Source: Marinifilum flexuosum
GTDB lineage: Bacteria > Bacteroidota > Bacteroidia > Bacteroidales > Marinifilaceae
Assembly: GCF_003610555.1 (NCBI RefSeq)
Contig: NZ_RAPQ01000009.1
Coordinates: 124,001 to 188,000, forward strand
Reading direction: 5' to 3'
DNA length: 64,000 nt
Part shown: one piece after another, positions 26,421 to 50,749 of the stretch
Layout of the letters: each line of letters starts with the position of its first letter
Numbering within the stretch: the stretch's first letter is position 1
Position numbers and translations under genes: made by a program
Notes under the pieces: model-generated
The model's input: the letters and a program-made list of their open reading frames with translations, nothing else
Told to the model about the DNA's origin: nothing
Databases searched by the model: none

Positions 26421-26460
26421 AGATGATCAAGTATTTCCTTACCTGAGTGACCAAAATTAA

Positions 26461-27825: not shown

Positions 27826-27827
27826 GA

Positions 27828-27866
27828 TTTTGGGTTTTGGGTTTTGGGTTTTGGGTTTTAGGTTTT
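27828..27866. repeat. TTTTGGG heptamer array with G-quadruplex pattern
   Basis: Four perfect TTTTGGG copies (27828-27855), then TTTTAGG and TTTTAG, lie three bases upstream of the channel start codon. On the plus strand the four GGG runs separated by TTTT satisfy the usual intramolecular G-quadruplex pattern, on the template strand of the channel gene. Confidence 0.9.
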
Positions 27867-27872
27867 AGTGAT

Positions 27873-28433: not shown

Positions 28434-28472
28434 TACAAATTAATTCTACCAAACAAACTGCTCTTCTATTCT

Positions 28473-29384: not shown

Positions 29385-29418
29385 GTTGTTTCCTTTTCTT
29401 GATTTAAAATATTGTTAT

Positions 29419-29799
29419 TTAACTTTCACCTTTCCTAATGCCATCCAATATTTCAATTGGCATATCTAATTTCATCTTTTTGATCTTATATTTTTGAACT
29501 TTAGTTAAATCAGGATCAAAACTAATTTGTCTGGTTTTAAAATTATTTTCTCTAATCCGATTAAATAGTTTGTCCACAAAAACAAACCATTCTGATGATG
29601 GTCTTAACAATTGCAATTCCTCATAATCTGTTAGATATGTATATCCATCTGCTAAATGAAAACACATTATTGCTGTTCCCATATCACAATTATCATCTTC
29701 TACAATTGCTTTTGGAAAATCAAATCCTTCATCCCAATTGTATTCATCAAGTAAATGGTGAAGTGTTTCTTTGTTTATATTCTCCCTGTTTTCTAACAT
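29419..29799 (-). CDS. DUF4274-like protein
   Basis: The 126-residue cytoplasmic protein opens with LHHLLDEYNWDEGFDFPKAI and then DDNCDMGTAIMCFHLADGY. These agree with my recollection of DUF4274, a family often placed near toxin or effector genes and suspected to have immunity roles. No toxin gene is recognisable alongside. A secreted protein gene lies 34 bases downstream in the same direction. Confidence 0.65.
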   Translation of the reverse strand: MLENRENINKETLHHLLDEYNWDEGFDFPKAIVEDDNCDMGTAIMCFHLADGYTYLTDYEELQLLRPSSEWFVFVDKLFNRIRENNFKTRQISFDPDLTKVQKYKIKKMKLDMPIEILDGIRKGES

Positions 29800-29898
29800 T
29801 TCAGGACCACTTCGTCTTAAAAGCTCAATCGATTTTAGTGTGAATAATAAAATCCTATAGATTTACATTATTTAAACTTTATACTACAAATAGTATAT

Positions 29899-30909: not shown

Positions 30910-30957
30910 TAATGCCTTATTTATCGATTGGAAAAGTTCCTATTGCATTAGCGCCCT

Positions 30958-31095
30958 CCAATTTAACAAGAATACATTTTAAACAAAATCTTTACCCTAA
31001 TAAATTGACATAGATTCTGACAACTTTCCTACTTTTCACCATTCCAACTCTTCAAGACTTTCAGAAAAAAAGTCCCCAATTACTCGGAGACTTTC
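30958..31095. repeat. Weak third copy of the terminator-bearing intergenic repeat
   Basis: This interval contains AATTTAACAAGAATA, AAACAAAATCTTTACCC and a terminator-like AGTCCCCAATTACTCGGAGACT. The same order of words occurs in the two better copies at 47143-47264 and 47709-47830. Similarity is partial. Confidence 0.4.
31068..31095 (-). terminator. Terminator of the beta-lactamase-fold hydrolase gene
   Basis: On the minus strand AAGTCTCC pairs with GGGGACTT (one G-U) around GAGTAATT and runs into TTTTTTT. It lies about 80 bases past the stop at 31178. Confidence 0.65.
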
Positions 31096-31177
31096 TATTT
31101 TACCATTTAAAGTATAATTTTCCACATGAAGAGCTCACATTAAGAATGGCCTCTACATGGCTAGCTGAGGTTTACAA

Positions 31178-32962: not shown

Positions 32963-33050
32963 AGCTTATGGATTATTAATTTATTATCATGATGGTTCCC
33001 AAAACAATTCTTCTGCTCTTATGCAGAATCATCCATTAGAATTACTCACA

Positions 33051-35258
33051 CTAGTTTTTTCCAAAACCATAGATGTAATCCTGGGCACGGATGATGAACA
33101 ACTTGTCAGAAATGGCAGGAGTAGCCATGCAGGTTTCACCCACCGGGTTTCTTGCAATGATTTCAAATTCAGGTCCTGCCTTCACCACAACCACACCTTT
33201 GCTTTCACTGGTACAGTACAACTTGCCATCAGCCGCTACCAACGATGCGGTTACTGCACTACATTTTAAGTTTTTTCGATAGATTTTCTCTCCTGTTTCT
33301 GCATGGTAACAAGTGAGCAATCCGTTATTGGCCATGGTATACAAATAACCATCATAGGCAATTGGTGATGGCATATAAGTCCCTCCTTTTAGGTATCGCC
33401 ACTTGATAAATTCTCCTGAAGACAAACTATCCGGAATAGAGATATCCCCACGCCCTCCGGGGATGATGGCATAAACCGGACGAACAGGTGGATATCCTCC
33501 CGTTACGTAAATCAAATCATTATACACAACAGGTGTACCCACGGTAACCTCCGAATTTGGTCCCAGTTTCCACAGCTCCTCACCAGTATCCGGATTATAG
33601 GCCTTTATGTATTCGGTTCCATTTGTAATCAGCTCATTATGATCTTTGCCGTAATACACAACCGGAGTTCCCCAGGAAGAGATCTCTTCCCGATTGTTTT
33701 TCCAAACCTCCTTGCCCGTTGCCAAATCAAAAGCAGCAACATAAGAATCCTTCGATCTGTCAGCCTGAATGATCACGGTATTCTTGTAGATCAATGGAGA
33801 AGCAGCATGTCCCCACTGGGTTTCCGACTCGAAAAACCAACCCGCGTCAAGAATTCCCATATCTTTTCTCCAAATCTCATTACCATCCATATCGTAACAC
33901 ACCAATCCCTCAGATCCATAAAGTGCTACCAGGTATTTCCCGTTGGTAACCGGAGTGGAATTGGCCTGTGTTGCCTTTGGATGGCGCTTCACCTTAGGCA
34001 CACCTTTATAGGCGGTATGTTCCCAAAGAATATCTCCCTTGCTCTTGTCCAAACAAAAGATCTTCCATACATGATTCGAATTGTCATTTACAGGTTTTAC
34101 ATCACCATATAAACCCACGCGATATTCTGCCGTTGGATCTTCACCTATGGCCGTAATCACATATATTTTGTCCTCCCAAACTACCGGACATGCATGAGAA
34201 AGCCCCGGAATCCTGGTTTTCCATTTCAGGTTTAAACCCTTTTCGGCATCCCATCTAACCGGTGGATACTGACCATCACCGTTTCCCTGGCAATTTTCTC
34301 CCCTGAAGGCAGTCCAGTTCAATACCTCTTTCACTTCTCCTACCTCATCCTTGTACTCAGACTTTACTTCCTTTTTCGCTACTTCTTCCGTTCGAACAAA
34401 ATCTCTCTGGTTTTCACCATTGCGAAACTTTACCGCTACAGCTATGTTCTCAACGGTTTTAAACGAGAGTGTAATGCTTGGAAATTCTGCTACAGAAAAA
34501 ATGTTTAATGAGTCATATTTCAATTCGTAATACTTGACATCATCAAAACTTGCAAATATCTTATTGTCTTCATTTTTGATTCTCAATTGCCCGTCTTTTT
34601 CTGAATACAAACCAGCAAACTTCACGTTTTTATCGTGATTATTCACTTTTGGAAGTACAGCTCCTGCATCCTTCAACAATTTGCATAGGTCTGTATTGTT
34701 CATCCCTGTTGCAGTTATCAGGGCAGCATTTAATTTATCACTTTCAATTTTCGTATGATCCAACAGTAGTTTTACTATCTCAACATGTTCATTGCGCACG
34801 GCAAGCACAATGGCATCATTGGCCCCAGCTACGTTTTTATCCAGCAATAGCTTCACGATATCAAGCTTCCCCTCTCTTACACTAAAAGGCAACAACCATT
34901 TGGTACTCAAATCAGCACCATGCTCCACCATCAGCTTTATCATTTCGAAGTTGGTTTCATAAAAAGCCCATTCAAAGGGAGTAGATTGATAAAAACGATC
35001 CCTGTTGTTTGGATCAGCACCATGTTCCAACAAGAACTTTACTGCCTCAAGGCTATTTTTCTCCACTGCAAAAGTTAAGGCCGTGGCTCCATATTTCGAT
35101 TTTGTATTTACATCGGTGCCCTCTTCAATCAACTTGGCAAGAGTGCCAATGTCATTGGTTTTGGCTGCCTTAAAAAAAGGAAGGTTGTCGGATTGTGCAT
35201 GAGCTGAGAGAAACACAGCTACCATTAGAAAAATGCTTAGGAATAATCTTTTCTTCAT
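33051..35258 (-). CDS. Exported protein combining ankyrin repeats with a PQQ-like beta-propeller
   Basis: The 735-residue protein has a signal peptide (1-22), five to six ankyrin repeats (about 28-205; TALTFAVEKNSLEAVKFLLEHGAD is typical), and a linker of about 100 residues with beta strands. A PQQ-like beta-propeller fills about 320-735, with repeated W-blade motifs (NLKWKTRIPGLSHA, VAAFDLATGKEVWK, AYNPDTGEELWKLG). No quinoprotein catalytic residues are obvious, so it may be a binding scaffold in the periplasm or on the surface. The combination of the two repeat types in one exported protein is unusual. Confidence 0.85.
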   Translation of the reverse strand: MKKRLFLSIFLMVAVFLSAHAQSDNLPFFKAAKTNDIGTLAKLIEEGTDVNTKSKYGATALTFAVEKNSLEAVKFLLEHGADPNNRDRFYQSTPFEWAFYETNFEMIKLMVEHGADLSTKWLLPFSVREGKLDIVKLLLDKNVAGANDAIVLAVRNEHVEIVKLLLDHTKIESDKLNAALITATGMNNTDLCKLLKDAGAVLPKVNNHDKNVKFAGLYSEKDGQLRIKNEDNKIFASFDDVKYYELKYDSLNIFSVAEFPSITLSFKTVENIAVAVKFRNGENQRDFVRTEEVAKKEVKSEYKDEVGEVKEVLNWTAFRGENCQGNGDGQYPPVRWDAEKGLNLKWKTRIPGLSHACPVVWEDKIYVITAIGEDPTAEYRVGLYGDVKPVNDNSNHVWKIFCLDKSKGDILWEHTAYKGVPKVKRHPKATQANSTPVTNGKYLVALYGSEGLVCYDMDGNEIWRKDMGILDAGWFFESETQWGHAASPLIYKNTVIIQADRSKDSYVAAFDLATGKEVWKNNREEISSWGTPVVYYGKDHNELITNGTEYIKAYNPDTGEELWKLGPNSEVTVGTPVVYNDLIYVTGGYPPVRPVYAIIPGGRGDISIPDSLSSGEFIKWRYLKGGTYMPSPIAYDGYLYTMANNGLLTCYHAETGEKIYRKNLKCSAVTASLVAADGKLYCTSESKGVVVVKAGPEFEIIARNPVGETCMATPAISDKLFIIRAQDYIYGFGKN

Positions 35259-35754
35259 TCTTATAGAATTTGTAGTTAGTATTCAGGCCCAATACGGATA
35301 AATACATTCACCCCCTATTCCTTCTACACGTCCTACAAACTATATACTTTCCCTTACACCAAGTAGTATTTTACCGTCTTATAAATTTATGATATATTTT
35401 CCCTTTCCCTTACACTTTCCTTAAAGATTTAGTTTTCAGATATCTATTTGGAACAATTCTATGCTTTAAACAGACACTATTATATGAAAAGATTCTTAAA
35501 TCCTCCGGTGTATTGCTTCCCAAATGATATGATCTAAGCACAGAGAACAAGAAGACACACAGAGGAACAAGCATTTCTCATCTCTATGACCTCTGTGCAT
35601 AAAAAATTTCTCCTCACAATCAGGATCATTCAAATATGCAGCTTTCCAATAATACCAAATGTAATATTTAATGAGCCATGTATTAAATGGCAGACAGAAT
35701 GAGCTTACACTGTACCTACAATGTTTTATACACTTTCTTAGACAAAGTACTTCA
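35259..35754. other. Intergenic region, no credible gene
   Basis: The only open frame here (minus strand, C-terminal HRGHRDEKCLFLCVSSC) comes from an 'acagaggaca'-rich intergenic sequence and looks like a spurious translation. The stretch near 35535-35610 (CACAGAGAACAAGAAGACAC and then GACCTCTGTGCAT) is of a type seen between genes in many bacteria. No RNA gene is recognised. Confidence 0.45.
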
Positions 35755-36306
35755 CTATCTTTTAAGCGATTTTTCTTCGCTCTTAACAAATGGATTGATA
35801 AAGGCTTTTCCATTCATTACATTAATTGCATTAAAGATTGACACCAAAGCACCAATGAGTAATCCTATCATAAAGGGAGTCAACTGATTCACTTTCCAAT
35901 AAACCCACAAGCCTCCCAAACTGATTCCCAAAATACACACCTGCATACTAAGAACAGCATGAAAATGATGTATCATATCTTTTGTTTTATTTTTTCTCTG
36001 ACGCCAAAGAATCAAGCTTGGAAAGAAAAGAGGCAACAATCCACTTAAATGCAAAAATCCAAGCCAAGTGTTGTGATTCACTTCCTGATCCTTCTTATCA
36101 TCATTCGTCTCCTCTACAAATAAGCTGAAATCAACATCCAATGCCTTTGCAATCATCTGAAGTGTATAAGCCCGTGGATCAACCTCTCCATTCTCAATCC
36201 GCTGTATGGTTCTTGCACTAAGCTCAGTCCTCTCAGCCAAGTCTTCCTGAGTTAAACCTTTTTTTACCCTTAGTTCTTTGATAAGTTTTCCTGTTTCCAT
36301 TTTCAT
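35755..36306 (-). CDS. XRE-family HTH protein with membrane domain
   Basis: The 183-residue protein has an N-terminal Xre/Cro HTH (about 5-62; GLTQEDLAERTELSARTIQRIENG). It is followed by a short acidic linker and a membrane part with three hydrophobic segments (about 80-100, 112-135, 140-162) resembling DUF4870. Membrane-tethered HTH proteins of this kind are common in Bacteroidota, where the membrane part may transmit a signal to the HTH. Its targets are unknown. It lies between the propeller gene and the defence-gene run, in the same orientation. Confidence 0.85.
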   Translation of the reverse strand: MKMETGKLIKELRVKKGLTQEDLAERTELSARTIQRIENGEVDPRAYTLQMIAKALDVDFSLFVEETNDDKKDQEVNHNTWLGFLHLSGLLPLFFPSLILWRQRKNKTKDMIHHFHAVLSMQVCILGISLGGLWVYWKVNQLTPFMIGLLIGALVSIFNAINVMNGKAFINPFVKSEEKSLKR

Positions 36307-36506
36307 TTCGTTTTTGATTTTGAGTCAAATGTCTGACTGATTAGGGTAACTTTCCAACTACAAAAGCACGACATTTACACGACACTCAAAATCAATCCAC
36401 ACATTATCAGCACTTTGAGAAAATGGAAAAATTAACTAGTATTTAATATTATCACTTATTCTTTTCATTCCCAAATTATAATATTGATTTAGAAATGTAG
36501 TCTTTA

Positions 36507-37067
36507 TCAACTTTCCCAAGTTATATAATTCAAAGATCCGTCCATATTAATTTGCACTACTAAAAGCTGATTACAAGGTTCTCCATCAATGTCAATCGAG
36601 TAGTCAAATGTTCCGAAATAAGATTCCTGTGGATAAATCCCAACTCTTATTAATTTCAGTTTTTCCATTAAGAGACTACTTCTTGATTTTTTTCGACTTT
36701 TTAAATCTATTATTCCAGCTAATTCATTCTCGCTAAGTTCATCAAGATAGAAATTTAGATAGTCGGATGTCATACTAACGGCTTGTTCAAAGTCCGCTTT
36801 TATGTAGTTCTGATTTTGATTATCAAATACAGGTATCTCATTCACAAACTCTATTACCTGATTTAATTCAGATTGGCTCGACATTTCAGTCTCAAAATTC
36901 AAATCTAAATTGAGTTTTCCCTCTCCATACTTTAATGTCCAATCATAATAATCGGTTAATTTATTCAATTCAATCTCTGCGAAATCTGGTTTTTCCAAAA
37001 TTCGGATTTCCTCTTTTCTTTTTTCATTCCTTTTATTGTTCTTTTTGAAAAAATCAAATATTCCCAT
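36507..37067 (-). CDS. DUF2004-like small protein at the edge of the defence genes
   Basis: The 186-residue cytoplasmic protein starts with a very basic stretch (FFKKNNKRNEKRKEE). It then has YYDWTLKYGEGKLNLDLNFE and ends FGTFDYSIDIDGEPCNQ followed by LLVVQINMDGSLNYI. This looks like DUF2004, a family proposed to include immunity proteins. The assignment is tentative. It lies 81 bases downstream of the helicase-nuclease gene in the same direction and could belong to that transcription unit. Confidence 0.5.
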   Translation of the reverse strand: MGIFDFFKKNNKRNEKRKEEIRILEKPDFAEIELNKLTDYYDWTLKYGEGKLNLDLNFETEMSSQSELNQVIEFVNEIPVFDNQNQNYIKADFEQAVSMTSDYLNFYLDELSENELAGIIDLKSRKKSRSSLLMEKLKLIRVGIYPQESYFGTFDYSIDIDGEPCNQLLVVQINMDGSLNYITWES

Positions 37068-37148
37068 TTTTTTGATTGTTTAGTCAGATTATAGCTAATC
37101 GTTTGGGTATATGGAGTGTCCCCTTGCCTCACGAATCGTAGACTAATG

Positions 37149-40100
37149 CTATTTCACCACACTTTCTAAAAATGATTTTGCTTTCTGTATCATATCTTGT
37201 GCTGGCTCTCCTTTTACAACAATAGATGATTCTTCCCTAAAGTATTTGCTTTGCTCGTCACGCAGAGCCGAAAACCAATTAAACGATCCATCAACAATGA
37301 TATCATTATCAATAATTATTGTTTTACTATGAATCCCATTTACAAGCTTTAATTTTGCACCACTTTGCTTGATGATCTCACGCCCCTTTTTGGCTGGAAG
37401 TTTTAATTGATTATTTGAAACATCAAGTGTTGAATCTGTAATAACCAAAACCTTTACTCCTCTATTTACCGTACTCCTTAATTGTTCCTTGATAGAATTA
37501 ATCCCTTTTGATTTCAACGCTTCTTTCTCGTTTCCATCATAATACTTAATCGTATCACATTCTATGGCATTGGAAGAAATAAAAGGAGAAACAATGATTA
37601 ATTCTGATTTTGCAATTTCAAATGCTCGATTTAAAGTTCCAACATGCTTATTTAAATCACTCACACGAACGACATTCTTGTCTGCATTTTTATTGTCGTA
37701 AACAATTTTATTCGATAGCTCACAACCTTCATCTTCCTGTAGCCATTGTTTTAAATAACCTAACGGATTTTTCTTTGTTGCATCAATGGCGTTCAGATTC
37801 CCAAAAACAAGAAAGCTCGACTTTGCTCTTGATATGGCTACATTAAGCATGTTAATATTACCTGCAAAAGAAGTACTGTTACCAGGAGTAATCACCGTAG
37901 AAAAAATCACAATATCAATTTCGGCGCCTTGCAATGCATGAACCGTTCCTGATATCAATTTCTGATAGATTTTCTTATCAATATTTAACAATTCATCTTT
38001 AATTAAAGAGGCCTGCGATTTATATGGTGTTACAACTGCAAGAATATCTGTTATGGGTTTATTTCCAAACGCTTTTTCAAGCTCTAGTCGTTTACTATCA
38101 ATCCATTTGGCAATGATTGCTGCATCCTGCACATTTCGCTTGCTACTTCCAATTTGCTCACTAGTACTTTCAATATGCATAAACCCTTTTAAAGGAAGTC
38201 CTGTTTCGACCTTCCTCTTGTTCCCTTTTGTTAATATCAATTTGTTATGATATACATGCTTATTGCTGTAAGATATGATCTTGTCGGGGCATCTTCTGTG
38301 TTCTTTTAGCAGAGTTCCTCCATCCTCACCATCTTTTACAAAACAGGCTTGTTGAGCCATTCTCATTATATTACCCAGCGAGCAAAGTAAGCCGTAATTT
38401 TTATAGGTGTTGAAGATATCATCGAGTGCAGTTTCAGGTAAAAGATTGTTCATTTTAAGATTTACAACATCCAGCTTATCTTCTACCGAACTAACGGGCG
38501 GAATTTGAAAAATATCACCCACTACAATTGCTTTTTTTGCCAAGGAAAAGGAAGGAATGGCAATTTCAGGAGCTACCTGACCTGCCTCATCAACAATCAG
38601 CAAATCAAATAAATCGTAATATGCTTTTTCACCTTCAGCCCTGTCGTAAAATGTACTAAAGCGAGGGATAGAATGAAAAGTAGAAATATAAATTGGCGTT
38701 ACACCTGCAAATCTTTGCAATTTTTCTTTATAAGTATCCTCGCCTCGTTCTCTATCATTGCTGTCTTGCTCTTGCTTCAGCTCCAGATTTAGCAAATATT
38801 CAGCTTCGCGAAAATGTATCGCATACCAAAAGGCTTCGTAACGGTACGATACATCCATTTTAACTTGCATATCCTCCAAAGCTTGTAAACCTGTGTACTC
38901 TTTACCTGTCATAGCCTGAAGGCTTTCAAGAACATCGCCATAATTCTTATTCCATTCGCGAATACATTGATGATAACTTGAAGTCAACTCTTCAATTTTG
39001 CATTGCAATGCCAGTAATTCATTCAATCGTTCATTGAGTTGCTTAAGCGAATTGGTCTTTGATATTATTGCTTCGTTTAGCAAATGAAGCAGAGCATTGT
39101 AATTGCTATAATCCGAAATTCCATTAACATCCACATTCAGCATAATTCTTTGAAACAGAGCAGCTCTGCGCTTTTTAAATTTTGGCAGAAAACAGAATAG
39201 CTTTTGCAGAAAAGGCTGTTGCTCTTTGGCTCTTGTCAACTGCTCTTCCACATCAGAAATTTGTTGAATTTCAACACCATACTTTTCAATATTCTCATAA
39301 GTAGAAGAAATATTTTCTTTTAGATCATCAAGATGTGAGAAGTTAGCAGTTTTCAACAATTGCCCAATACTTTCATATCCTTCAGCAATATCAATATGCT
39401 CTTTTATCTGTCTTACTTTCGACTGTACAATGGACAATAATTCATCTTTACACTCTTCAATATCAGTACATGCCTTGATATTCTCAGCGAACTCTTTTAA
39501 AAAGAACTCCTTTTTATCCTCTACATCGCCGCTTTCAAAATCATTCAAAAAGCCATTCCCATATTCCGAAGTACAAGTTTGATACTTTTTGTTATCATTG
39601 GTCGACAAATACAAACCCAAAGAAGACACCTCGGGCAACCACCTGTTGGTTAACTTGTCTTTCGAATCCAGAACAAAACTATCAAGTATATTTGTAATTG
39701 CCTGGTTATTTGCAGAACAGGCAACAATTAGTTCTGGTTTTTGCTGATTTGCCACAGTAGAAACCACACTATTGGCTACCACCGACTGTAAAAATGTAGT
39801 TTTACCCGTACCCGGAGGACCATTTACCGCCAGAACATTCGATTCTTCAAGAAGGTTAAAACAAGTAATGCTCTCCCTTTGCGAAACAGACAAGGGAAAT
39901 TCTCCACTCATTTGTCCCACATGCATTTTATTTCTAACAATCTTTGATTGCTCTGGTATAGCAATAGAATTTACACCTTCCCTATCAATAAGTTTTTGAA
40001 GCAACCCTTCAGTCGGAAGCGATTCTTCCAACCTGGTGTACAACTTTCTAATATTCTCACTTAGGCCTCGCAATTCTCCTTTTTGAACAAAAATGTGCTT

Positions 40101-40643
40101 CTCCTGTTTTATATTGTATTCCTCAAAGCTTTTCCCCGTTATCAACTTGAAAAAAGATTCACACTTTCTCCAAAATTCACTCCATGTCTCCTCTTTAAAT
40201 TCGATTTTTTGCAAACCACTATCAACATCCTGAATGGATGCAATACTGTATGTACCTTTAGGATTCGGAACCAGATACTCCCTTACAAAAAAAGGTTTAG
40301 TCAATCCCTTGTTGTTTTTTTGTGGTGCCAGTGTACCATCCTTATACATTATAGCTGGTATCCAAAACGGATAATGAACTTCCTCCACCAACTCTTTCGA
40401 TTTTGCATGTTCAAATGCCGTTTGAATGGAGCAAGAACAAACATCGACATTGATAAACTGAGTTTCCTCCTTGGTTTGAGAAATGTTCCACAAGAAATTT
40501 GCATGCCTCTGTGGAACCTTATCGATAAAGTATGATTCCACCAGTATAGGATGTGTTGTAACTTCAATCTTTTTCCTATCAACATCTGCCAATGTTTTCT
40601 TCCAGTAACTTAACCAGTATCTTATATCTGAAACCTTTACCAC
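37149..40643 (-). CDS. SF1 helicase fused to PLD nuclease, Mokosh type II-like (MkoC-like)
   Basis: The 1164-residue protein has an N-terminal region of about 240 residues of unknown fold and a Q-motif (LSVSQRESI, 251-259). Walker A is GPPGTGKTT (275-283), interrupted by a coiled-coil insertion of roughly 400 residues. Walker B is IVDEAGQ (about 685), then GDIFQIPPV, TPYKSQASLI, VHALQGAEIDIV and NVAISRAKSSF, the Upf1-like SF1B set (COG1112; AAA_11/AAA_12). The C-terminus carries a PLD active site H1105-S-K1107 with D1112 and GSFNW. The published Mokosh type II anti-phage system is a single protein of this kind. The N-terminal part may differ. It sits in a run of other putative defence genes. 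Confidence 0.85.
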   Translation of the reverse strand: MVKVSDIRYWLSYWKKTLADVDRKKIEVTTHPILVESYFIDKVPQRHANFLWNISQTKEETQFINVDVCSCSIQTAFEHAKSKELVEEVHYPFWIPAIMYKDGTLAPQKNNKGLTKPFFVREYLVPNPKGTYSIASIQDVDSGLQKIEFKEETWSEFWRKCESFFKLITGKSFEEYNIKQEKHIFVQKGELRGLSENIRKLYTRLEESLPTEGLLQKLIDREGVNSIAIPEQSKIVRNKMHVGQMSGEFPLSVSQRESITCFNLLEESNVLAVNGPPGTGKTTFLQSVVANSVVSTVANQQKPELIVACSANNQAITNILDSFVLDSKDKLTNRWLPEVSSLGLYLSTNDNKKYQTCTSEYGNGFLNDFESGDVEDKKEFFLKEFAENIKACTDIEECKDELLSIVQSKVRQIKEHIDIAEGYESIGQLLKTANFSHLDDLKENISSTYENIEKYGVEIQQISDVEEQLTRAKEQQPFLQKLFCFLPKFKKRRAALFQRIMLNVDVNGISDYSNYNALLHLLNEAIISKTNSLKQLNERLNELLALQCKIEELTSSYHQCIREWNKNYGDVLESLQAMTGKEYTGLQALEDMQVKMDVSYRYEAFWYAIHFREAEYLLNLELKQEQDSNDRERGEDTYKEKLQRFAGVTPIYISTFHSIPRFSTFYDRAEGEKAYYDLFDLLIVDEAGQVAPEIAIPSFSLAKKAIVVGDIFQIPPVSSVEDKLDVVNLKMNNLLPETALDDIFNTYKNYGLLCSLGNIMRMAQQACFVKDGEDGGTLLKEHRRCPDKIISYSNKHVYHNKLILTKGNKRKVETGLPLKGFMHIESTSEQIGSSKRNVQDAAIIAKWIDSKRLELEKAFGNKPITDILAVVTPYKSQASLIKDELLNIDKKIYQKLISGTVHALQGAEIDIVIFSTVITPGNSTSFAGNINMLNVAISRAKSSFLVFGNLNAIDATKKNPLGYLKQWLQEDEGCELSNKIVYDNKNADKNVVRVSDLNKHVGTLNRAFEIAKSELIIVSPFISSNAIECDTIKYYDGNEKEALKSKGINSIKEQLRSTVNRGVKVLVITDSTLDVSNNQLKLPAKKGREIIKQSGAKLKLVNGIHSKTIIIDNDIIVDGSFNWFSALRDEQSKYFREESSIVVKGEPAQDMIQKAKSFLESVVK

Positions 40644-40774
40644 TTTGCTAATTTTAAATTCTTACTTTATAATGTCACAAAGCCACAAGAGAAGACTCGT
40701 ATGGCAGTACAAAATCTACTAAAGAAAAGATGTAATTTTTTAAGACTCACTTCGCATGACAAAACCTATTAATT

Positions 40775-42313
40775 CTACTTCAGCCCATCAAACTTCGCCT
40801 TCATGGTAGGATTACCATAGGTCAATTTTTTAATGGTCAAATCATCGGCCTTGTTATTGGCCAAACGCAAATTATTCTCCGATGACAAAAGCGCATCCTT
40901 TGTTTTCTGAAGATGAGTAATGGTTTTATCGATCTCGTCAATGGCCGTTTTAAATTTTCTGCTGGCCAGTTCGTAATTGTAGGCAAAACCTTTTCTAAAA
41001 GCATCAATCTTTTCTTCGAACCTGGTGATATCCACATTCTGATTCCTCATCATGTTCAGCTCAGCCTTGTATTGCATTGAATTCATGGCAGCATTTCGAA
41101 GCAGGGTAATCATCGGAATGAAAAATTGCGGACGCACCACATACATTTTTTCATACTTGTGCGATACATCAACAATACCCGTATTGTAGAACTCATTATC
41201 CGATTCTAAAAGCGAGACCAGTACAGCATATTCACACTCCTTGTCTTTTCGATCCTTATCCAACTTGGCAAAGAAATCCTCGTTTCTCTTTTTCGTAGCC
41301 GTTTCATCGTTCTCGTTCTTCATTTCGAACATGATAGAGATCACCTCATTTCCTGCCTCATCCGTTTCGCGGTAAATAAAGTCACCTTTACTTCCCCCTC
41401 GGGCATCGTTATCCTTTTCGAAATAGGCTCTCTGGAATGCCGTTGCACGCAGCTTGTTAAATTCCGATTCGCAATGCTGCTCCAAAGTTTCCCCCACCAT
41501 CTTGGTAGAAAGTTTCTGCTTAAAGTCCTTCAAACGAACAATCTCATCATCCTTCATTTTAATGGTTTCATCTTTGGCAATCAACTGGTTGGTAAATTGT
41601 TCCTTTATCGATTTTTCAAGCAACTCCTTCTCTGTCTCTTTTATTTTCAGATCATTCACCAAATCATCTCTCTGCTTTTCAATTAGCTTGGTGGCCTCCG
41701 ATACGGCTAATTTCTTCTCCGTCTCCGCCTGCTCTATCCTCGATTTCATTTCAGCAATTTCGCCTTCTTTGGCAGCCAATTTCTGCAATAATTCCGTTTC
41801 ACTTTGGGCCTTTTGCTCTGTCAGTTTTCTGTCCTTTTCGGCCAACTCCTTTTCCAACAGACTTTTCACATTGGCCTCTGCCAGTTTCACCGCATTTTCC
41901 TTTTCAGCTTCCTTGCTTTTTAGACTGCCAGCCAAATCATCGCGTTCCCTTTCAATTTGTTTGGTAGCCTCCGATACCGCCAACATCTTCTCACTTTCTG
42001 CCTTTTCAATCTTCGATTTCATTGCAGAAATTTCACTCTCCTTCTCAGCCAACTTCTCCGAAAGTTGCGTATCGCTTTGCGCCTTCAATTCGGCTAACTT
42101 TCTGTCCTTTTCGGACAGCTCCTTTTGCAAGACATTTTTAATGTTTGCCTCAGCCAACTTTATGGCATTCTCTTTTTCCTGATCTGCCAGCAACAACCTC
42201 TTCTTCAACTCCTCCTCAAACTGACTGTCTCGAACTTGATTTAGAATATCCGCAAATCCAGCTTCATCTACCTTAAAGGCTTTCTTACAATTGGGGCAAA
42301 TTATTTCGTTCAT
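40775..42313 (-). CDS. DUF2130 (RmuC-like) coiled-coil protein
   Basis: The 512-residue protein starts with a CPNCKKAF knuckle (Cys6, Cys9), then a long Glu/Lys/Ala coiled coil (about 30-265), then the DUF2130 domain (about 265-430). The domain includes [38 protein letters not shown] and [14 protein letters not shown], a distant PD-(D/E)XK-like nuclease fold. The coiled coil holds a tandem duplication of 91 residues (about 48-138 and 139-229, each beginning ENA[IV]KLAEAN). DUF2130 proteins are often found near defence or repair genes, but their role is unproven. It lies between the helicase and HEPN genes, all on one strand. Confidence 0.88.
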
Positions 42314-42383
42314 GTGGTATCTGTTTTCTTCTGTAATATATTACAACCCTACTAAAACTAAACTGTTATAATTGGTGGTAAAA

Positions 42384-43790
42384 TTAATGATTTTGTTTTG
42401 TGCTAGCTAGCGGAGATCTCTCCTCTCCTTCACCAGCCCATAATTTCCTCGAACATCTATTATAGAATACCCCCTTAAACTTTAAGATATTTAGTAATGA
42501 TATTTCTAAACACCATATCCCAAATTCTAATGCCTCATATTTAACTATAGTTGAAATATTCTCTAGCTTCAGTCTCTTTTCCTTTTGAGAATGTACAATT
42601 GCATTACGAATCTCTACAAACGCATCAATTTCATCATGAATACTATTATTATCTCTCACAAACTGCTTTAGATTTTCTAAATTGATATTATCATTATTCA
42701 TTCCATTAACCTGTGATAACAATAAGCGAACCTTATTTGCCGCTGATAAATTTTCACAATCTCTTCCTCTAATTAATTGATTCTTCTCAACTACAAACCA
42801 ATTATACATCAACTCCAATGCAGTCTGGGTCCAGGTTATAGATCCTTCTACATATCCACTATACGCATTAGCTTCAACGTACCAATGAACAGCTGATATT
42901 AATAAATTCTTATCTGATTTATTTCTCCACAGTTTATAAAATTCCTGCCACAATTCATTTAACCCGTTAATATCATGTTTTGCAGGCCATGTCGTCACAT
43001 ATTGATATTGATCTACAGTATAATCTGTATAATCAGTCCAAATAGTTTTACCATCATCCATTCCTTGTATGATTAAAGGTGTCGTTCTTCTTCCATTCAA
43101 AAAACTTAAAAATGTGGAAAATGAATGAATAGTATCTGATATATCTTCGGTAGAAACTGGATTTTTATGACATATCATTTCTCCATTATAAAGAAACACA
43201 TAGCCTCCTGTATCTTTTAATCTATTAACCTTATCTTTAAAATTCCTTTCTCTATCGATTCTGATTGTAAAGTATTCATTCTCGAAAACTAACCTATCTC
43301 TCCCTAAATAATTCTCTGTTTCATCACGAATAGATTCTCCGAAGAAATCTCTTAAGTTAGGAATCACAAATTTCAACTTATCGACCTTTATTGTTCCATC
43401 ACCAAGGATTGCTCTACCTTTTAATATTCCAGATAGCTCTACTTGGTCAGAGAAGGTTTTATTCATCAAATAGAAACTCCCCAATTTTTCCTCATTTATA
43501 AATAGATCAAATTTTCCATCTGACGAAATTAAATTGATCTCCTTTTCTGAACAGAAATCTACTATCCCAATAAATTTCACTTTCAAGTTTGGAAACCATA
43601 ACAACTTAACTGTTCCTGTTAAGTTAATTTCCATAGTTCTTTGTACCAGCTTAAAGTTTCCTTCATGGATTAAAATTGATTGGTTTGGTTCATCCATAGT
43701 AATTGAAGGTTTTATTGCCAAAGGGATATCCTCTATCATTCTTTTTACTTCATCTTTCATTTTACTCAAAACAGTTATATATTCCCGCAA
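42384..43790 (-). CDS. HEPN-domain protein resembling the ApeA abortive-infection protein
   Basis: The 468-residue protein has a beta-rich N-terminal half (about 1-200). The helical C-terminal half carries R395-N-A-I-V-H400, the R-x4-H motif of HEPN ribonucleases, preceded by DEIDAFVEI. Size and layout (beta-rich sensor followed by HEPN) match ApeA, a single-gene anti-phage system, and its relatives, in which the HEPN domain cleaves RNA and stops growth on infection. Assignment to ApeA rather than another HEPN family is inferred. The last 20 residues (LWAGEGEERSPLAST) look like read-through into non-coding sequence. The gene is AT-rich relative to the housekeeping genes. Confidence 0.72.
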   Translation of the reverse strand: MREYITVLSKMKDEVKRMIEDIPLAIKPSITMDEPNQSILIHEGNFKLVQRTMEINLTGTVKLLWFPNLKVKFIGIVDFCSEKEINLISSDGKFDLFINEEKLGSFYLMNKTFSDQVELSGILKGRAILGDGTIKVDKLKFVIPNLRDFFGESIRDETENYLGRDRLVFENEYFTIRIDRERNFKDKVNRLKDTGGYVFLYNGEMICHKNPVSTEDISDTIHSFSTFLSFLNGRRTTPLIIQGMDDGKTIWTDYTDYTVDQYQYVTTWPAKHDINGLNELWQEFYKLWRNKSDKNLLISAVHWYVEANAYSGYVEGSITWTQTALELMYNWFVVEKNQLIRGRDCENLSAANKVRLLLSQVNGMNNDNINLENLKQFVRDNNSIHDEIDAFVEIRNAIVHSQKEKRLKLENISTIVKYEALEFGIWCLEISLLNILKFKGVFYNRCSRKLWAGEGEERSPLASTKQNH

Positions 43791-43854
43791 GAATACTTTC
43801 GTGTGATCTCTACTAAAAAGAGATAACTCTCTTCAATATCCCAATCATTATATT

Positions 43855-46146
43855 CTAATTCCTTTCAAAAATTGCCTCTATATCACAACTTGAATTTCCA
43901 CCAGAAGAATAACCTCCTCTAAACTCCTCTTCATATCCCTCCCCATATGAACTTATAAAATCATCTACTAACTGGTCTATTTCAATACTTTCAATAATAT
44001 CAGCACCGTCAATTTCTATATAATCCAAAAGTTTTTCATCTAATTCGGATATAATAGTATCAAGGATGGATTCCATTTCATGTTCTATCCCTCCAGAATC
44101 AAAATCCAATACAAATTCACCATGCTCATGATCATAACTACTATGAATATAAGGCTCTAGATTCGCGGAACTTTTATTGTCAGCAAACACTTCTCTAATA
44201 TATGAATCTACTTCATCACTCAAATTTTCGAAAAGTATTTCATCTTTAATATCATACTTCCTTATTAATTCCACCACCTTATTAATATCTTCTCTGTCTA
44301 AGGAACCATATTGTATATATCCAGCAACAAAAGAAAAATCCTTAATTTCAACATTTCCATTAAAATCAATTAGCAATTCCAAAAGTTCATATAATCTTTC
44401 CCCTCTTGCTTCTTTATAACTTGATATTTCTATAATAAATTTTTCTATTGAGTTTACGACTCTAGTATTTAAAATATCAAGACATGAAAGTTGTACCAAA
44501 TAATCCCAATCGCGATCTATAAGTTTAATATCGCAAAAGTGTCTAAATAACTCAGATTGTATTTCTCGAATTATGCTACGGGAGATTCTATTATTTTGTT
44601 TTAAACTGTTTAAAAAGTCAATCGAAGATCTTGTACCTAAAGCTTTTAAAACAGATTCAACTAGATCAACATCTTCTAAATATGCATTTAAAACGAAATC
44701 ACTAACCGAAGGATTAAATAGTGTATACTCATAAATTCTGTCCCCTATTTTTCTTCTATTTAGCAATGATTTAATTGCTAATTTTCTAACTGCATCAAAG
44801 CTGCTATCAGTACTGCCTGTATTCATTTTAAAATTTTGTTTATAGAATGAATAAGACTTACTCAACACACTTTCGCCAATTACCCCTGAGTTAAAAACAG
44901 TTAGGAAAGTCAAAACTCTAACCGGATCATCTATTTGATATTGAAAGAAATTACTCCAAATCTCTTTAGGGTTATCAAGTTTATCAACTATATAGTTCCA
45001 ATATTCACTTGATTTAATTCTAGAGATTCTCTTATTGTTAGTGATAAATTCAATAATTCTGGGATTAAAGTTCTTGTGTTGAATTATCTGTTTATATCTT
45101 TTTTGCTTATAAATTTCATCAATATAAACATTGTCGAGATTTGAATGATAAATGTGATTATAAAGAATTTTTGCTTTATCCAAATCAGATAGATCTTCAA
45201 TTTTCAACAAGAATTCATCCTCCCTAAGATCCTCATTTTGGAACCGATGACTTGAACTTACAGCCATTGCTAGAATATTTGTTCTGGAAGTAAGGATGAA
45301 CTTTTTCGAATCATCCTTTTTAATCCTATTTATAAACTTTACTATATGAGAATCTCTTTTATTACTTATAGCATCATATACATTACTTCCAAGGAAATCG
45401 TCACAATAAAATACTATCTTCTTTTTTTCTTTTTGCCTAAGGATGGCCTCTGCTTCACTAATTGATTCTTCTATATCACAAAATTCAAATCCATTTGCTG
45501 TATAGTACAGTGCAAGATTATTAGCTAATGTCGTTTTACCTATACCTGGTTCGCCAGAAATAATGATAACATTACTATTCTTTAAAATTTCCGTTCCTTT
45601 GGTATGATTATTTGTAATTACATACCTCTCATTATTTGATTTAATCTCACTTAAAGTACTCTCACTTCTTCCTTTTATTGCATTATTATATACTATATCT
45701 AATATTTGTGTACTTGTTATCCATAGTTTATAATTCTTTTCGACAATATTTTGATTCTCTTTCTTTGAAAGGAAATCATTTATATCATCTTCTCCCCAAA
45801 CATCTGATTCAGATTTTATAAAAGGTGAGAATATCTCTACTATTTCTTTTTTGTTCTCTCTAGATAATGGAATGGATGTAAAAAAAACATACTTAATTGG
45901 ATTAAGTTTCTTTACCTTATCGACCTCCTCTTTTTTTAATTTACTGATTAAACCTTTATATCCTGTTTTCCAATAGTGTTTGCATTGTATTATTCCTTCC
46001 CTTTTACCAATCCAAAAACGACCATCAACACCACCATCTCTACCTGCTTTAAACTTCTCAACAGTGAGATCTAATTCATCTGAAATAATATCTGCAGATA
46101 AAGATTCAAATTCTCTATCATTTAGTTTAGATAAAAAAAACTCCAT
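43855..46146 (-). CDS. STAND NTPase with N-terminal Mrr/PD-(D/E)XK nuclease domain
   Basis: The 763-residue protein starts with a restriction-endonuclease-like domain (1-130) with Glu14, D41 in GGVDG and Q54-C-K56 (IIQCKHYW), the Mrr-type PD-(D/E)XK core. A STAND-type NTPase follows (about 165-400) with Walker A GEPGIGKT (198-205), Walker B-like VFYCDDFLGS and sensor segment FILTSRTNIL, like the nSTAND3 class. The remaining 360 residues are helical and end in an acidic, Gly/Ser-rich tail. The architecture parallels AVAST-type defence proteins, where the C-terminal part recognises a phage protein and activates the nuclease. It lies 39 bases downstream of the GIY-YIG gene. Confidence 0.82.
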   Translation of the reverse strand: MEFFLSKLNDREFESLSADIISDELDLTVEKFKAGRDGGVDGRFWIGKREGIIQCKHYWKTGYKGLISKLKKEEVDKVKKLNPIKYVFFTSIPLSRENKKEIVEIFSPFIKSESDVWGEDDINDFLSKKENQNIVEKNYKLWITSTQILDIVYNNAIKGRSESTLSEIKSNNERYVITNNHTKGTEILKNSNVIIISGEPGIGKTTLANNLALYYTANGFEFCDIEESISEAEAILRQKEKKKIVFYCDDFLGSNVYDAISNKRDSHIVKFINRIKKDDSKKFILTSRTNILAMAVSSSHRFQNEDLREDEFLLKIEDLSDLDKAKILYNHIYHSNLDNVYIDEIYKQKRYKQIIQHKNFNPRIIEFITNNKRISRIKSSEYWNYIVDKLDNPKEIWSNFFQYQIDDPVRVLTFLTVFNSGVIGESVLSKSYSFYKQNFKMNTGSTDSSFDAVRKLAIKSLLNRRKIGDRIYEYTLFNPSVSDFVLNAYLEDVDLVESVLKALGTRSSIDFLNSLKQNNRISRSIIREIQSELFRHFCDIKLIDRDWDYLVQLSCLDILNTRVVNSIEKFIIEISSYKEARGERLYELLELLIDFNGNVEIKDFSFVAGYIQYGSLDREDINKVVELIRKYDIKDEILFENLSDEVDSYIREVFADNKSSANLEPYIHSSYDHEHGEFVLDFDSGGIEHEMESILDTIISELDEKLLDYIEIDGADIIESIEIDQLVDDFISSYGEGYEEEFRGGYSSGGNSSCDIEAIFERN

Positions 46147-46185
46147 TAAATTTATTTAAGATATGTAATTCGTTTTGTGCTCTGT

Positions 46186-46977
46186 TTAATTTTCAATTTT
46201 ACTTACCCATTCCCTCAGAGTTTCAGGATAAACAGTAGGATAACCATATCCTTGAGGTTTTATCCCTTGTATTGTTTTATTGATATACTTATTTCTTGTA
46301 TCAATATCTGCCACTTCTCCATTAAAACCATACCCTAAATAAACATTACCATACTTATCTAGGCGCTCTTTGGTATACCATTCTTTTATTTTAAACACCT
46401 CCCTTATAAGACCTCTATATTCACTTAATACATAACAATATTTTGGGGGCCTCCATTCTGCCATTTTCCAAGTTTCTTTTGTAGCATTATAAATAGCTTC
46501 AACACCTGCACCTTTTTTATAATTCTTATTGATGTTTATTATTAAGCAGTTGTCATCAATAACCTTTAATGGCTCCGCATTATAGATAGATATAATTTCA
46601 TCGGAAGTCATTAATCCATTTTCTATTGAATTAACTCCACCTTGAATATTACCTTTGACAAAGGTATTAAATGAAGGAATATATCTAAACGTATCAATTA
46701 AGCTAGCTTCTACTGCAAATGCGGCAGACTCACTTAACCCATGCCTTACAATAACATGTTTTACTTTATCTGAACCAATACGTTGAATTTCTTGATACTT
46801 AAGATTCTCAGTATTTTCTTTTATATCAAGGTTTATATGAGCAAATACTCTATTCTCTTTACCTTTCCCAACATAAAAAGGTTCATTTGTTTCTGGGTCT
46901 ACCAATAGGTAGACATAAAAACTCAAAATTTCACATGTTTTTTCATCAAACATACTGGTATTATTTAAATTAACCAC
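46186..46977 (-). CDS. GIY-YIG nuclease (LEM-3-like)
   Basis: The 263-residue protein has the GIY-YIG core at 20-45: FYVYLLVDPETNEPFYVGKG with Tyr23, Tyr35 and a following Arg43 (ENRVFAH). Further on there is AAFAVEASLIDTF, with the Glu expected to bind the metal. The C-terminal 150 residues are unassigned but include a KMAEWR and tyrosine-rich segment. LEM-3-like GIY-YIG proteins are DNA endonucleases, often in bacterial defence or mobile contexts. It is first in the minus-strand run that includes the STAND, HEPN, DUF2130 and helicase genes. Confidence 0.85.
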   Translation of the reverse strand: MVNLNNTSMFDEKTCEILSFYVYLLVDPETNEPFYVGKGKENRVFAHINLDIKENTENLKYQEIQRIGSDKVKHVIVRHGLSESAAFAVEASLIDTFRYIPSFNTFVKGNIQGGVNSIENGLMTSDEIISIYNAEPLKVIDDNCLIININKNYKKGAGVEAIYNATKETWKMAEWRPPKYCYVLSEYRGLIREVFKIKEWYTKERLDKYGNVYLGYGFNGEVADIDTRNKYINKTIQGIKPQGYGYPTVYPETLREWVSKIEN

Positions 46978-47142
46978 AATAGATTGAATACCATCACACC
47001 TATGTTATATTATTCATTCACTTACCCTTGCAAACTACCGTTTATCATACTATTTTCTCAAAATCCTAACTGAAAAAGTTCTAATTTTTGAATGAGATAT
47101 TTCCCCCATACAAGTTCATATCTCTTGTAATCAAAATACAAT

Positions 47143-47264
47143 TCCGAATTTAACAACAATTATTACCAAACAAAATATTTATCCCAATAAAGATCAATAG
47201 AATTTATCAATACAATTTATATCTTGATTGAAAACACAAAAGCCCCCAATTACTTGGGGGCTTC
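47143..47264. repeat. Direct repeat copy 1, terminator-bearing
   Basis: The segment begins TCCGAATTTAACAACAA, continues with CCAAACAAAA and TATTTATCCC, then ATTTATCAA and GATTGAAAA. It ends in the hairpin AGCCCCCAATTACTTGGGGGCT. The same words occur in the same order at 47709-47830. Confidence 0.8.
47241..47262 (-). terminator. Intrinsic terminator of the small membrane gene
   Basis: AGCCCCCAA-TTAC-TTGGGGGCT is a perfect 9-bp stem. On the minus strand it runs into TTTT. It lies about 50 bases past the stop at 47311. Confidence 0.88.
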
Positions 47265-47310
47265 ATACAATTAGATAGTAGTATTATAAATGCTACCTGT
47301 AAATCTTTTA

Positions 47311-47667
47311 TTAAGAATTTAATTTTGCTTGTGCTTTTCTACCAAGTGGAACAAGAACCGTTATAGCAAAAGCCGAAAAGAAATAATATGCCATGGTAAT
47401 GATACCAAACCAGTAGGTAATATTGTAACCTGTACTATACTTAGCGGCCTTTACAAGGCGCTCTGGTTCTGAAGACAATATCATACTATAAATTTTATTT
47501 ATCCAAATAAAATTTCCATGAATGGCTCCCATAAAAAAACCATTAAACCCAGTGTATTCTTTTGCTGCTTCAGGGTAAACAAAATATGCTATAACAATGC
47601 TTGCAATAAAGTAAGAGATCACCTTAATTTTCTTTTCCTGTAGTTTGTTTGTTTTCTTTTCTGTCAT
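47311..47667 (-). CDS. Small membrane protein of unknown function
   Basis: The 118-residue protein has a basic N-terminus and two clear membrane segments (about 18-36 and 84-106). A third, weaker one lies near 40-58 (FNGFFMGAIHGNFIWINKIY). It is not a family I can name. It is bracketed by the two copies of a 120-bp direct repeat that end in near-identical terminators. This suggests that a gene-plus-terminator unit was duplicated and one gene copy lost or replaced. Confidence 0.7.
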   Translation of the reverse strand: MTEKKTNKLQEKKIKVISYFIASIVIAYFVYPEAAKEYTGFNGFFMGAIHGNFIWINKIYSMILSSEPERLVKAAKYSTGYNITYWFGIITMAYYFFSAFAITVLVPLGRKAQAKLNS

Positions 47668-47708
47668 TGTCTTTTTATTTAATTGTCATTTATCCTTTAA
47701 TCCACAAG

Positions 47709-47830
47709 TCCGAATTTAACAACAAGTATCTCCAAACAAAACACATATCCTATAAACCACAATAGTATTTATCAAAGCCTTATACTTATTGATTGAAAAT
47801 ACAAAGCCCCCAATTACTTGGGGGCCTTCC
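47709..47830. repeat. Direct repeat copy 2, terminator-bearing
   Basis: This is the second copy of the element at 47143-47264, with GTCCGAATTTAACAACAAG at the left and AAAGCCCCCAATTACTTGGG at the right. The middle has diverged more than the ends. Confidence 0.8.
47804..47828 (-). terminator. Second copy of the GCCCCC hairpin terminator
   Basis: AAAGCCCCCAA-TTAC-TTGGGGGCCTT pairs over 9 or more positions. On the minus strand it runs into TTT. It would end the possible gene at 47909. Confidence 0.7.
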
Positions 47831-47908
47831 TACTAATCCTGGCTTTAAACCATTCCTCTTATTATAACACTTAGGCATTCAACCAGGTTTTAAAACTTGT
47901 TTACAAAA

Positions 47909-48205
47909 TTACTTCAGTACACACTCCTTTTCCGTTTCATTTTCCAGATAATCGAAAGCCTTTACCACCATCTTGTCATCACTATTTTCCCTTCTCCTTC
48001 TCACATTTTTTTGTATTCCTCCATTTAGGATGACACAGTTTATTGAATAATCCCTCTTGCTTTTAGGAATACTCTTTTGAACTTGAACAAACCGAATGGA
48101 ATTACTTTCATCATGGTTCAATTTACCTAGATTATTTCTCGATTTTCTTCTAATCCCAATGGATTTTCTTCCATTCTGAATTAATTTTCCTTCATTCTGA
48201 ATCAA
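47909..48205 (-). CDS. Possible small protein beginning in heptapeptide repeats (uncertain)
   Basis: The 98-codon frame starts inside the 21-bp tandem array, so its first 35 residues are heptapeptide-like (KLIQNGRKSIGIRRKS). The remainder (VQKSIPKSKRDYSINCVILN, then KMVVKAFDYLENETEKEC) is charged and not repetitive. A terminator follows about 80 bases after the stop. It may be a decayed gene. I recognise no family. Confidence 0.25.
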   Translation of the reverse strand: MIQNEGKLIQNGRKSIGIRRKSRNNLGKLNHDESNSIRFVQVQKSIPKSKRDYSINCVILNGGIQKNVRRRRENSDDKMVVKAFDYLENETEKECVLK

Positions 48206-48570
48206 TTTTCTTCCATTCTGAATTGATTTATTTTCTTTTCCGCACTATCTATTTACATTCCCGCGCTATCTATTTTCTTTTCCGCACTATCTATTTACAT
48301 TTCCGTACAGTCTATTTCCTTTTCTGGAGCATCTATTTTCATTTCTGGAGGATCTATTTGCATTTCTGATGGATCTATTTCTCTTTCTGGAGGATTTATT
48401 TACTTTTCTGGAGGATTTATTTACTTTTCTGGAGAGCCTATTTCCTTTTCTGGAGGATTTATTCACTTTTCTGGAGAGTCTATTTCCTTTTCTGATGGAT
48501 CTATTTTCATGTCTGGAGGATCTATTTCCTTTTCTGGAGAGTCTATTTTCATTTTCGCGCTATCTAATTT
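48129..48570. repeat. Array of about twenty 21-bp tandem units
   Basis: Units such as TTTCTGGAGGATTTATTTACT, TTTCTGGAGAGTCTATTTCC and TTCCGCACTATCTATTTAC repeat every 21 bases from about 48129 to 48570. The unit sequence drifts from CATTCTGAATTAATTTTC to CGCACTATCTATTTAC to TCTGGAGGATCTATTTC. Each unit is seven codons, so frames on both strands read as heptapeptides (plus: LEDLFTF, LESLFPF; minus: SPEKEID). Whether any of them is translated is unclear. The array lies between the defence region and rarD. Confidence 0.92.
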
Positions 48571-48590
48571 CTTTATAGAACAATCCATTT

Positions 48591-48724
48591 CCGTCGCAAT
48601 AAACATCCCCTTACAAAACAACTTACCCAATTGCGACGATTTATTATAGAATCCTTTAACCCAGGGCGGCAGTCGCTTCACTCCCTTCCCCTGGGCTAGA
48701 ATGATATTTGCCTTTCAGGCAACA
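48591..48724. repeat. REP-like dispersed element, copy 1
   Basis: This roughly 130-bp element has three nested inverted repeats: GTCGCAAT/ATTGCGAC at the left, CCCAGGG/CCCTGGG in the middle and TTGCC/GGCAA at the right. The second copy lies at 50622-50749 in the same orientation. Related CCAGGGCGGCAG...CTGGGCTA sequences are recalled as intergenic repeats in Bacteroidota. Confidence 0.85.
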
Positions 48725-50621: not shown

Positions 50622-50749
50622 GTCGCAATAGGCAATCCACACAAAACAACACCTCCAGTTGCGACAATTTATTATAGAATCCATTAACCCAGGGCGGCAG
50701 TTGCTTCGCGCCCTTTCCCTGGGCTAAATGATACTTGCCCTTCAGGCAA
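50622..50749. repeat. REP-like dispersed element, copy 2
   Basis: This is the counterpart of 48591-48724, sharing TTATTATAGAATCC, AACCCAGGGCGGCAGT, CCCTGGGCTA and CTTCAGGCAA, with the same three inverted repeats. The two copies enclose rarD, the DUF4440 lipoprotein and the cupin. Confidence 0.85.

Follow-up and report, generated by a model that had tools for sequence, protein, structure and literature searches.

Chromosomal defence hotspots, in which flanks common to relatives enclose varying defence contents, have been described for Pseudomonas aeruginosa, with 29% and 47% of the sites of the two hotspots cDHS1 and cDHS2 reported to be without a detectable mobile gene and with homologous recombination suggested (PMC10250203). 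As an alternative route, defence genes have been reported on mobile elements in Escherichia coli (PMC10121019). Among individual systems, Mokosh and ApeA are counted as antiphage defences, and both Mokosh types are given a PLD-like domain (PMC10952713); CMoRE of E. coli is presented as a single-component system, a modification-dependent endonuclease acting on DNA with 5-hydroxymethylcytosine (5hmC) and its glucosylated form (5ghmC) (PMC12923530); and domains with the HEPN motif Rx4-6H are treated as predicted RNases (PMC3710099). Here, we analyse a window of 64,000 nucleotides from Marinifilum flexuosum (contig NZ_RAPQ01000009.1, positions 124,001 to 188,000 of the forward strand; all coordinates below refer to the window), in which six genes of the minus strand, designated A to F in the direction of transcription, lie side by side. 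These genes very probably occupy a two-slot chromosomal defence hotspot beside the DUF2130 gene (D), filled by independent modules.

The site beside DUF2130 in sister genomes

The features of the site, with protein lengths in amino acids (aa), open reading frames abbreviated as ORFs and four same-genus relatives designated G036 to G039, are as follows:

35755..36306, minus strand: left anchor, a gene with helix-turn-helix (HTH) and DUF4870, 96% identical in G038 and G039
36494..40785, no strand: slot L, with E and F here, absent in G038 and G039 (blastn edges)
36507..37067, minus strand: F, 186-aa protein without assignment, present in no other of 56 family genomes (two Pfam matches below cut-off)
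37149..40643, minus strand: E, MkoC, Mokosh type II superfamily 1 (SF1) helicase with PLD nuclease, 1164 aa (PADLOC, Pfam, motifs)
40775..42313, minus strand: D, DUF2130, with an N-terminal Cys pair, a long predicted helix and a PD-(D/E)XK-like domain (Pfam)
42384..43760, minus strand: C, ApeA-like, with a beta-rich N-terminal half and a HEPN-motif half (Pfam, Rx4H, model)
42405..47078, no strand: slot R, with C, B and A here, Gabija in G039, QatABCD in G036 and no PADLOC match in G038
43855..46146, minus strand: B, Mrr-type PD-(D/E)XK nuclease with nSTAND3 NTPase, PDC-S73, 763 aa (Pfam, PADLOC)
46186..46977, minus strand: A, GIY-YIG endonuclease, relative of PD-T4-3 and CMoRE, 263 aa (PADLOC, alignment to solved structures)
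47060..47280, no strand: right anchor with a terminator-like hairpin (47264-47239, minus strand) upstream of A, conserved in G036, G038 and G039

DUF2130 is found at the same site with 98% identity in G038 and 97% in G039, and the homology of both genomes to the window is interrupted on either side of it. In slot L, blastn places the end of homology at 36493 for G038 and at 36478-36482 for G039, with its return at 40786-40788; the stretch from DUF2130 to the HTH-DUF4870 gene measures 4,293 bp here but only 338 bp (G038) and 179 bp (G039) in the sisters. In slot R, homology of both genomes ends at 42386-42404 and resumes at 47060-47079 (blastn). The slot holds three ORFs in G038, none with a PADLOC match, and a Gabija pair (GajA 752 bits, GajB 783 bits) together with an 88-aa ORF without match in G039. 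In G036, three genes without PADLOC match follow past the right anchor and are succeeded by QatA (367 bits), QatB (33 bits, weak), QatC (318 bits) and QatD (223 bits), which are placed in the slot by the right flank alone as the contig stops short of DUF2130; the match to the left anchor in this genome spans residues 43-183 and contains one TGA. Separately, G036 has a displaced remnant beyond the HTH-DUF4870 gene (L077 5875-5980), made up of the final 100 bp or so of DUF2130.

Flanks shared by four of the five genus genomes thus enclose differing defence contents at one place, and the gene order of the set is not conserved in the sisters, Gabija (G039) and, by its right flank, QatABCD (G036) filling the same slot. 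Since at this place close relatives have either different defence systems or none, the locus reads as a parking spot for defence genes and not as a new multi-part machine. In its common flanks and varying defence contents, it resembles cDHS1 and cDHS2 as described (PMC10250203), many sites of which likewise show no mobile gene. It differs from them in that a kept DUF2130 separates two slots, that these are of modest size (0.2-4.7 kb for those with both edges known) and that the comparison extends to five genomes of one genus, one of them without the whole region, in another phylum. As hotspots with varied contents are already known, the two-slot layout around a kept gene is regarded as a new member, which, given a limited literature search, is not claimed to be unpublished. 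The edges at base level and the sister sites document a defence hotspot beside DUF2130 in a genus of the Bacteroidota, and the locus offers itself as a place to seek further defence systems in relatives.

Base composition and one junction bear on how the slots came to be filled. The G+C content (GC) is 30.8% in A, 29.1% in B, 31.6% in C and 30.8% in F; it is 41.7% in D and similar in three flanking genes, with 42.4% in the ankyrin-PQQ gene, 39.9% in the EamA transporter gene and 37.1% in the HTH gene. The last six codons and the stop of C (tail STKQNH) show 1 mismatch in 21 positions to the DNA upstream of DUF2130 in G039 and 6 in 21 in G038; as the tail matches this upstream DNA of G039 and the homologues of C end differently, C appears to have been joined onto pre-existing sequence. 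Low GC and the C tail together suggest that the direction of change was a gain here and not a loss in the sisters. The DNA directly upstream of DUF2130 is kept in G038, which is without C, B and A, and equally, with a diverged middle, in G039; its retention in the absence of these genes would fit a promoter of DUF2130's own.

The sequence-only reading had proposed a compact defence island in which no mobility genes are visible. The island itself stands, and the absence of mobility genes holds for those 28 proteins of the window that were scanned with Pfam, out of 52 ORFs of at least 80 aa in a greedy list. Furthermore, no transfer RNA gene was found in the window. With neither at hand, homologous recombination would be the simplest route, and the modules may have been gained and exchanged via homologous recombination of the conserved flanks.

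The modules and their described relatives

The six minus-strand ORFs were recovered at the coordinates first assigned to them and with intergenic gaps of exactly 39, 64, 70, 131 and 81 bases, the gap between B and C becoming 94 bases if C begins at the ATG at 43760. The labels GIY-YIG (A), PD-(D/E)XK-STAND (B), HEPN motif (C), DUF2130 (D) and helicase-PLD (E) were upheld, whereas DUF2004 was not for F. The PLD and PD-(D/E)XK motifs are read here by their general definitions.

Gene A matches the PADLOC model PD-T4-3 (E-value 3e-43) and, in a sequence search of the PDB, the solved E. coli CMoRE entries 9u7u (E-value 1.7e-24) and 9u75 (2.7e-24), which are the structures of PMC12923530. The alignment covers residues 10-236 of A, with YVY, FYVGKGK.NRVFAH and VEA.LID aligned and the C-terminal part, which would correspond to the sensor domain, aligned weakly up to residue 236; by sequence alignment, the GIYxY-YIG motif, of which GIYxY is taken from the same source (PMC12923530), and the catalytic Arg and Glu are present. 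While A shares YVY...FYVGKG with CMoRE and an alignment that reaches into the C-terminal part, its counterpart of the acidic loop, by our own reading of which loop this is, is shorter and without the run of four acidic residues.

In gene B, Pfam recognises Mrr_cat and nSTAND3, and the motifs comprise a Walker A (GEPGIGKT) and D...QCK. The protein is a full-length match of PDC-S73, a single-gene candidate of PADLOC, with residues 2-762 on positions 3-751 of the 752-position model (E-value 5.7e-241). No paper on the name PDC-S73 was found in the literature search, and a PDB sequence search returned a stretch of Lon protease only (E-value 0.0044).

Gene C was listed as an ORF of 42384-43790; in the alignment with its homologues, their first residue falls on the ATG at 43760, which is probably the start. 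The match to Pfam ApeA_NTD1 (26.0 bits) lies just over the cut-off of 25.5 and that to HEPN_Apea (16.0 bits) under the cut-off of 24.4. An RNAIVH sequence conforms to Rx4H, its R, N and H being invariant in five aligned sequences (the window and four others). A structure model from five sequences, with a predicted local distance difference test score (pLDDT) of 68.5 and a predicted template modelling score (pTM) of 0.72, shows a beta-rich N-terminal and a helical C-terminal half, a layout as expected from an ApeA_NTD1-HEPN architecture. PADLOC gave no ApeA match at an E-value of 0.1, a PDB fold search with the model nothing at 0.001 and a PDB sequence search a best E-value of 0.11. C resembles ApeA in that a match to ApeA_NTD1 precedes a helical half bearing RNxxxH; it differs by its HEPN_Apea score below the cut-off, the lack of a PADLOC ApeA match and its rarity (2 of 56 genomes in the family and 2 of 247 in the order, own genome included). 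It represents an ApeA-like candidate gene unnamed by PADLOC.

Gene E matches PADLOC MkoC, which we take to be the type II Mokosh protein, with 1022 bits over residues 8-1160 of 1164, and Pfam finds AAA_11, AAA_12 and PLDc_2. Walker A, DEAG and HxK(x4)D(x6)GSxN motifs are present, and E unites SF1 helicase and PLD nuclease in one protein as is characteristic of Mokosh type II. The likeness to this type consists in near-complete coverage of the MkoC model with helicase and PLD motifs; the difference is that E is followed by F, which was found in no other of the 56 family genomes. Elsewhere in G038, a PDC-S06 gene is seen a few ORFs off a MkoC relative (L055 8638-16367).

For gene F, Pfam listed DUF2262 (15.8 bits, cut-off 29.8) and Peptidase_C50 (12.9 bits, cut-off 27.8) only. 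As both lie under the cut-off, the assignment to DUF2004 falls and was rejected. In the PDB sequence search, the best E-value for F was 0.45.

Each module would act alone, by the mechanism of its family. By analogy to CMoRE, A may cut phage DNA with modified cytosine; in B, the STAND sensor could switch on the Mrr nuclease; C, as an ApeA-like HEPN RNase, may act in abortive infection; and E, as a Mokosh type II protein, would unwind and cut phage nucleic acid. DUF2130 would be a coiled-coil nuclease similar to RmuC with a housekeeping or other role. Together, the modules would provide breadth of protection and not one pathway.

Distribution of the six genes and the case for a joint system

The distribution of the genes was followed in 56 genomes of the family, own genome included, at thresholds of 1e-20 for B, D and E, 1e-5 for C, 1e-8 for A and 1e-4 for F, the counts for B, D and E being lower bounds as only some first-look candidates were scored per genome. 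Matches were obtained in at least 4 genomes for B, at least 4 for E, at least 5 for D, 2 for C and 1 each for A and F. At the order level, again with the own genome, C occurs in 2 of 247 genomes, D in at least 18 of 247 and B in at least 7 of 393. No second genome among the 56 has two of the six genes on one contig. Besides the own genome, more than one of them was found in G038 and G032 only. G038 carries D and a 38%-identical E on separate contigs (C55 and C71). G032, of which one contig is identical to JAESUW010000032.1 of Labilibaculum sp. (Marinifilaceae according to NCBI), carries C (40% identity), D (83% over residues 182-511) and E (37%) on contigs C20, C102 and C143. These contigs are short (10-28 kb), so separate contigs alone prove little; nonetheless, the local neighbours differ, E adjoining a type I restriction-like gene and D a Gabija system.

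Another of the six genes was found in none of nine non-self loci of B, eight of them read again with longer flanks (4.4-20 kb overall, some ending at contig ends), none of four loci of C and none of three loci of E (4.1, 17.5 and 20 kb read). A lone extra match, of B at an E-value of 6.7e-4, falls within the MkoC gene of L036. Plasmid records match A (181), B (44), C (5) and E (54); no accession is shared among the best 10 of 181 for A, 20 of 44 for B, all 5 for C and 10 of 54 for E. On viral contigs, no relative of A, B, C, E or F was confirmed with single-protein queries, which reach close relatives only; DUF2130 is present on four viral contigs.

It had been proposed that A to F might be one long unit and that the set, should it travel together, could be a multi-part system. 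The same strand and the short gaps would suit one operon. Between 35700 and 47800, 7 terminator-like sites were found versus 4.8 +/- 2.2 expected, internal sites thus not being clearly over chance; the longest hairpin, of 11 pairs on the minus strand (47264-47239), is located outside the island, directly upstream of A. A scan for sigma-70 promoters gave 43 versus 49.0 +/- 6.1 in shuffles, with no excess. On the other hand, two sister genomes have DUF2130 at the same site without the other five genes, no contig with two of the genes was found in the relatives examined, the families matched by A, B and E are catalogued singly and GC varies between the modules. Relatives hold the genes singly, elsewhere and with other partners, which is at odds with a set travelling together. 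One multi-part system in one long operon can therefore be given hardly any credence and was rejected on the evidence of the sister sites. As a caution, adjoining defence genes need not be one machine.

Alternatively, A, B and C might form a small cassette, moving and acting as a unit and composed of a cutter of modified DNA, a STAND nuclease and a HEPN RNase; DUF2130 and MkoC-F would then be bystanders. The three genes have a common low GC (29-32%), lie 39-94 bp apart and occupy one slot. Nevertheless, neither partner was present in the nine B loci or the four C loci (the loci of A lying outside this comparison), the homologue of C in MEOH01000024.1 (L057 788-4593) comes after a PDC-M01A/PDC-M01B pair, PtuA being matched more weakly there, and CMoRE in E. 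coli is described as single-component (PMC12923530). We consider such a cassette very unlikely.

Several points weigh against a hotspot of independent modules. The GC of E (36.2%) is not distinct from that of the window (35.7%), and presence and absence alone fit loss in the sisters equally well. A, B and C are co-directional with gaps of 39 and 64 (or 94) bp, and a shared A-B-C transcript is possible. The only family copy of A is at this locus, and the comparison of loci covers B, C and E, not A. In G036, the slot is defined by the right anchor only and DUF2130 is reduced to a displaced tail. Only four same-genus relatives were compared, and one of these, G037 (80% complete, about 500 contigs), is without both anchors and DUF2130, 25.6 kb in all, with window positions 23274 and 48853 only 124 bp apart on one contig (L079 3294-3418); the flanks are hence common to four of the five genomes and not to all. 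Furthermore, 967 bp replace 26419-35539 in G039 and about 1.2 kb replace 27901-30947 in G038. A larger stretch, at about 23.3-48.8 kb, is plastic, with the two slots forming its defence-rich part.

DUF2130 as anchor or partner

Gene D matches Pfam DUF2130 with an E-value of 3.9e-89, and Zn_ribbon_4 lies under the cut-off. RmuC is, we assume, a relative of DUF2130. A D...EMK motif is present, with D311, E330 and K332 invariant in five sequences. The structure model is poor (pLDDT 59, pTM 0.28), its predicted strand order matching beta-beta-beta-alpha-beta; this order and the three residues fit a PD-(D/E)XK nuclease without proving it. A PDB sequence search found no solved relative (best E-value 0.73). 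An internal duplication is seen in the coiled coil, 41659-41905 and 41932-42178 being 74% identical, and several DUF2130 homologues have frames of about 425 aa that align as two overlapping pieces in the duplicated part.

DUF2130 might itself act in defence, in concert with the module that happens to adjoin it, and be the core of a system and not a mere anchor, which we consider very unlikely. In such a case, it would be the constant half of a modular locus, an RmuC-like PD-(D/E)XK nuclease processing phage DNA with or after the adjoining module, to which only a slim chance is given; that CMoRE, STAND-Mrr, HEPN, Mokosh and Gabija would be its exchangeable modules is similarly improbable. In favour of such a role, DUF2130 adjoins Gabija in two genera of the family, represented by G039 and G032, and the D...ExK residues are invariant in the five sequences; moreover, PMC10952713 lists RmuC domains for Shield and also as an accessory of DISARM. 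In G032 (L050 2030-7209), the Gabija pair directly downstream of DUF2130 is a different one (GajA 993 bits, GajB 714 bits).

The neighbourhood of DUF2130 was further surveyed in 16 loci, comprising G050 of the family and 15 of 17 other order-level genomes with a match; the fragmentary G211 and G299 and the loci on four viral contigs were left out, and those of G038, G039 and G032 were treated separately. Scanning the 57 nearest genes (up to two per side, at least 100 aa) at an E-value of 1e-15 yielded two type I restriction subunits, in 2 of the 16 loci (L061 and L065), one mad3 (E-value 1.2e-24) and one WYL regulator; a weaker type II restriction match (E-value 3.4e-9) was noted for a neighbour in L085. 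While the type I subunits would speak for a core role of DUF2130, the 57 neighbours as a whole gave few defence matches, and in G038 neither slot has a PADLOC match, the three ORFs of slot R having been scanned. For 80 genes farther out in the same loci, 178 families were obtained, and the 25 listed include type I methylase and specificity models with two members apiece, which presumably belong to the remainder of those two operons; near and far gene sets being linked in this way, their comparison is uninformative on enrichment.

Further repeats were observed around and beyond the right anchor. Direct repeats are present in two pairs, with 85% and 72% likeness and about 565 bp apart, in 47138-47268 and 47704-47833, where they flank a 118-aa gene (47311-47667); since both copies match one stretch of G036, this gene seems to lie inside a small duplication containing the hairpin. 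At 48162-48602, an array of 21-bp tandem units has ORFs on both strands. An 86-bp interspersed repeat is present at 48613-48698 and 50641-50726 (87% identical), with related copies in G036 (L053 and L078) and G038 (L047).

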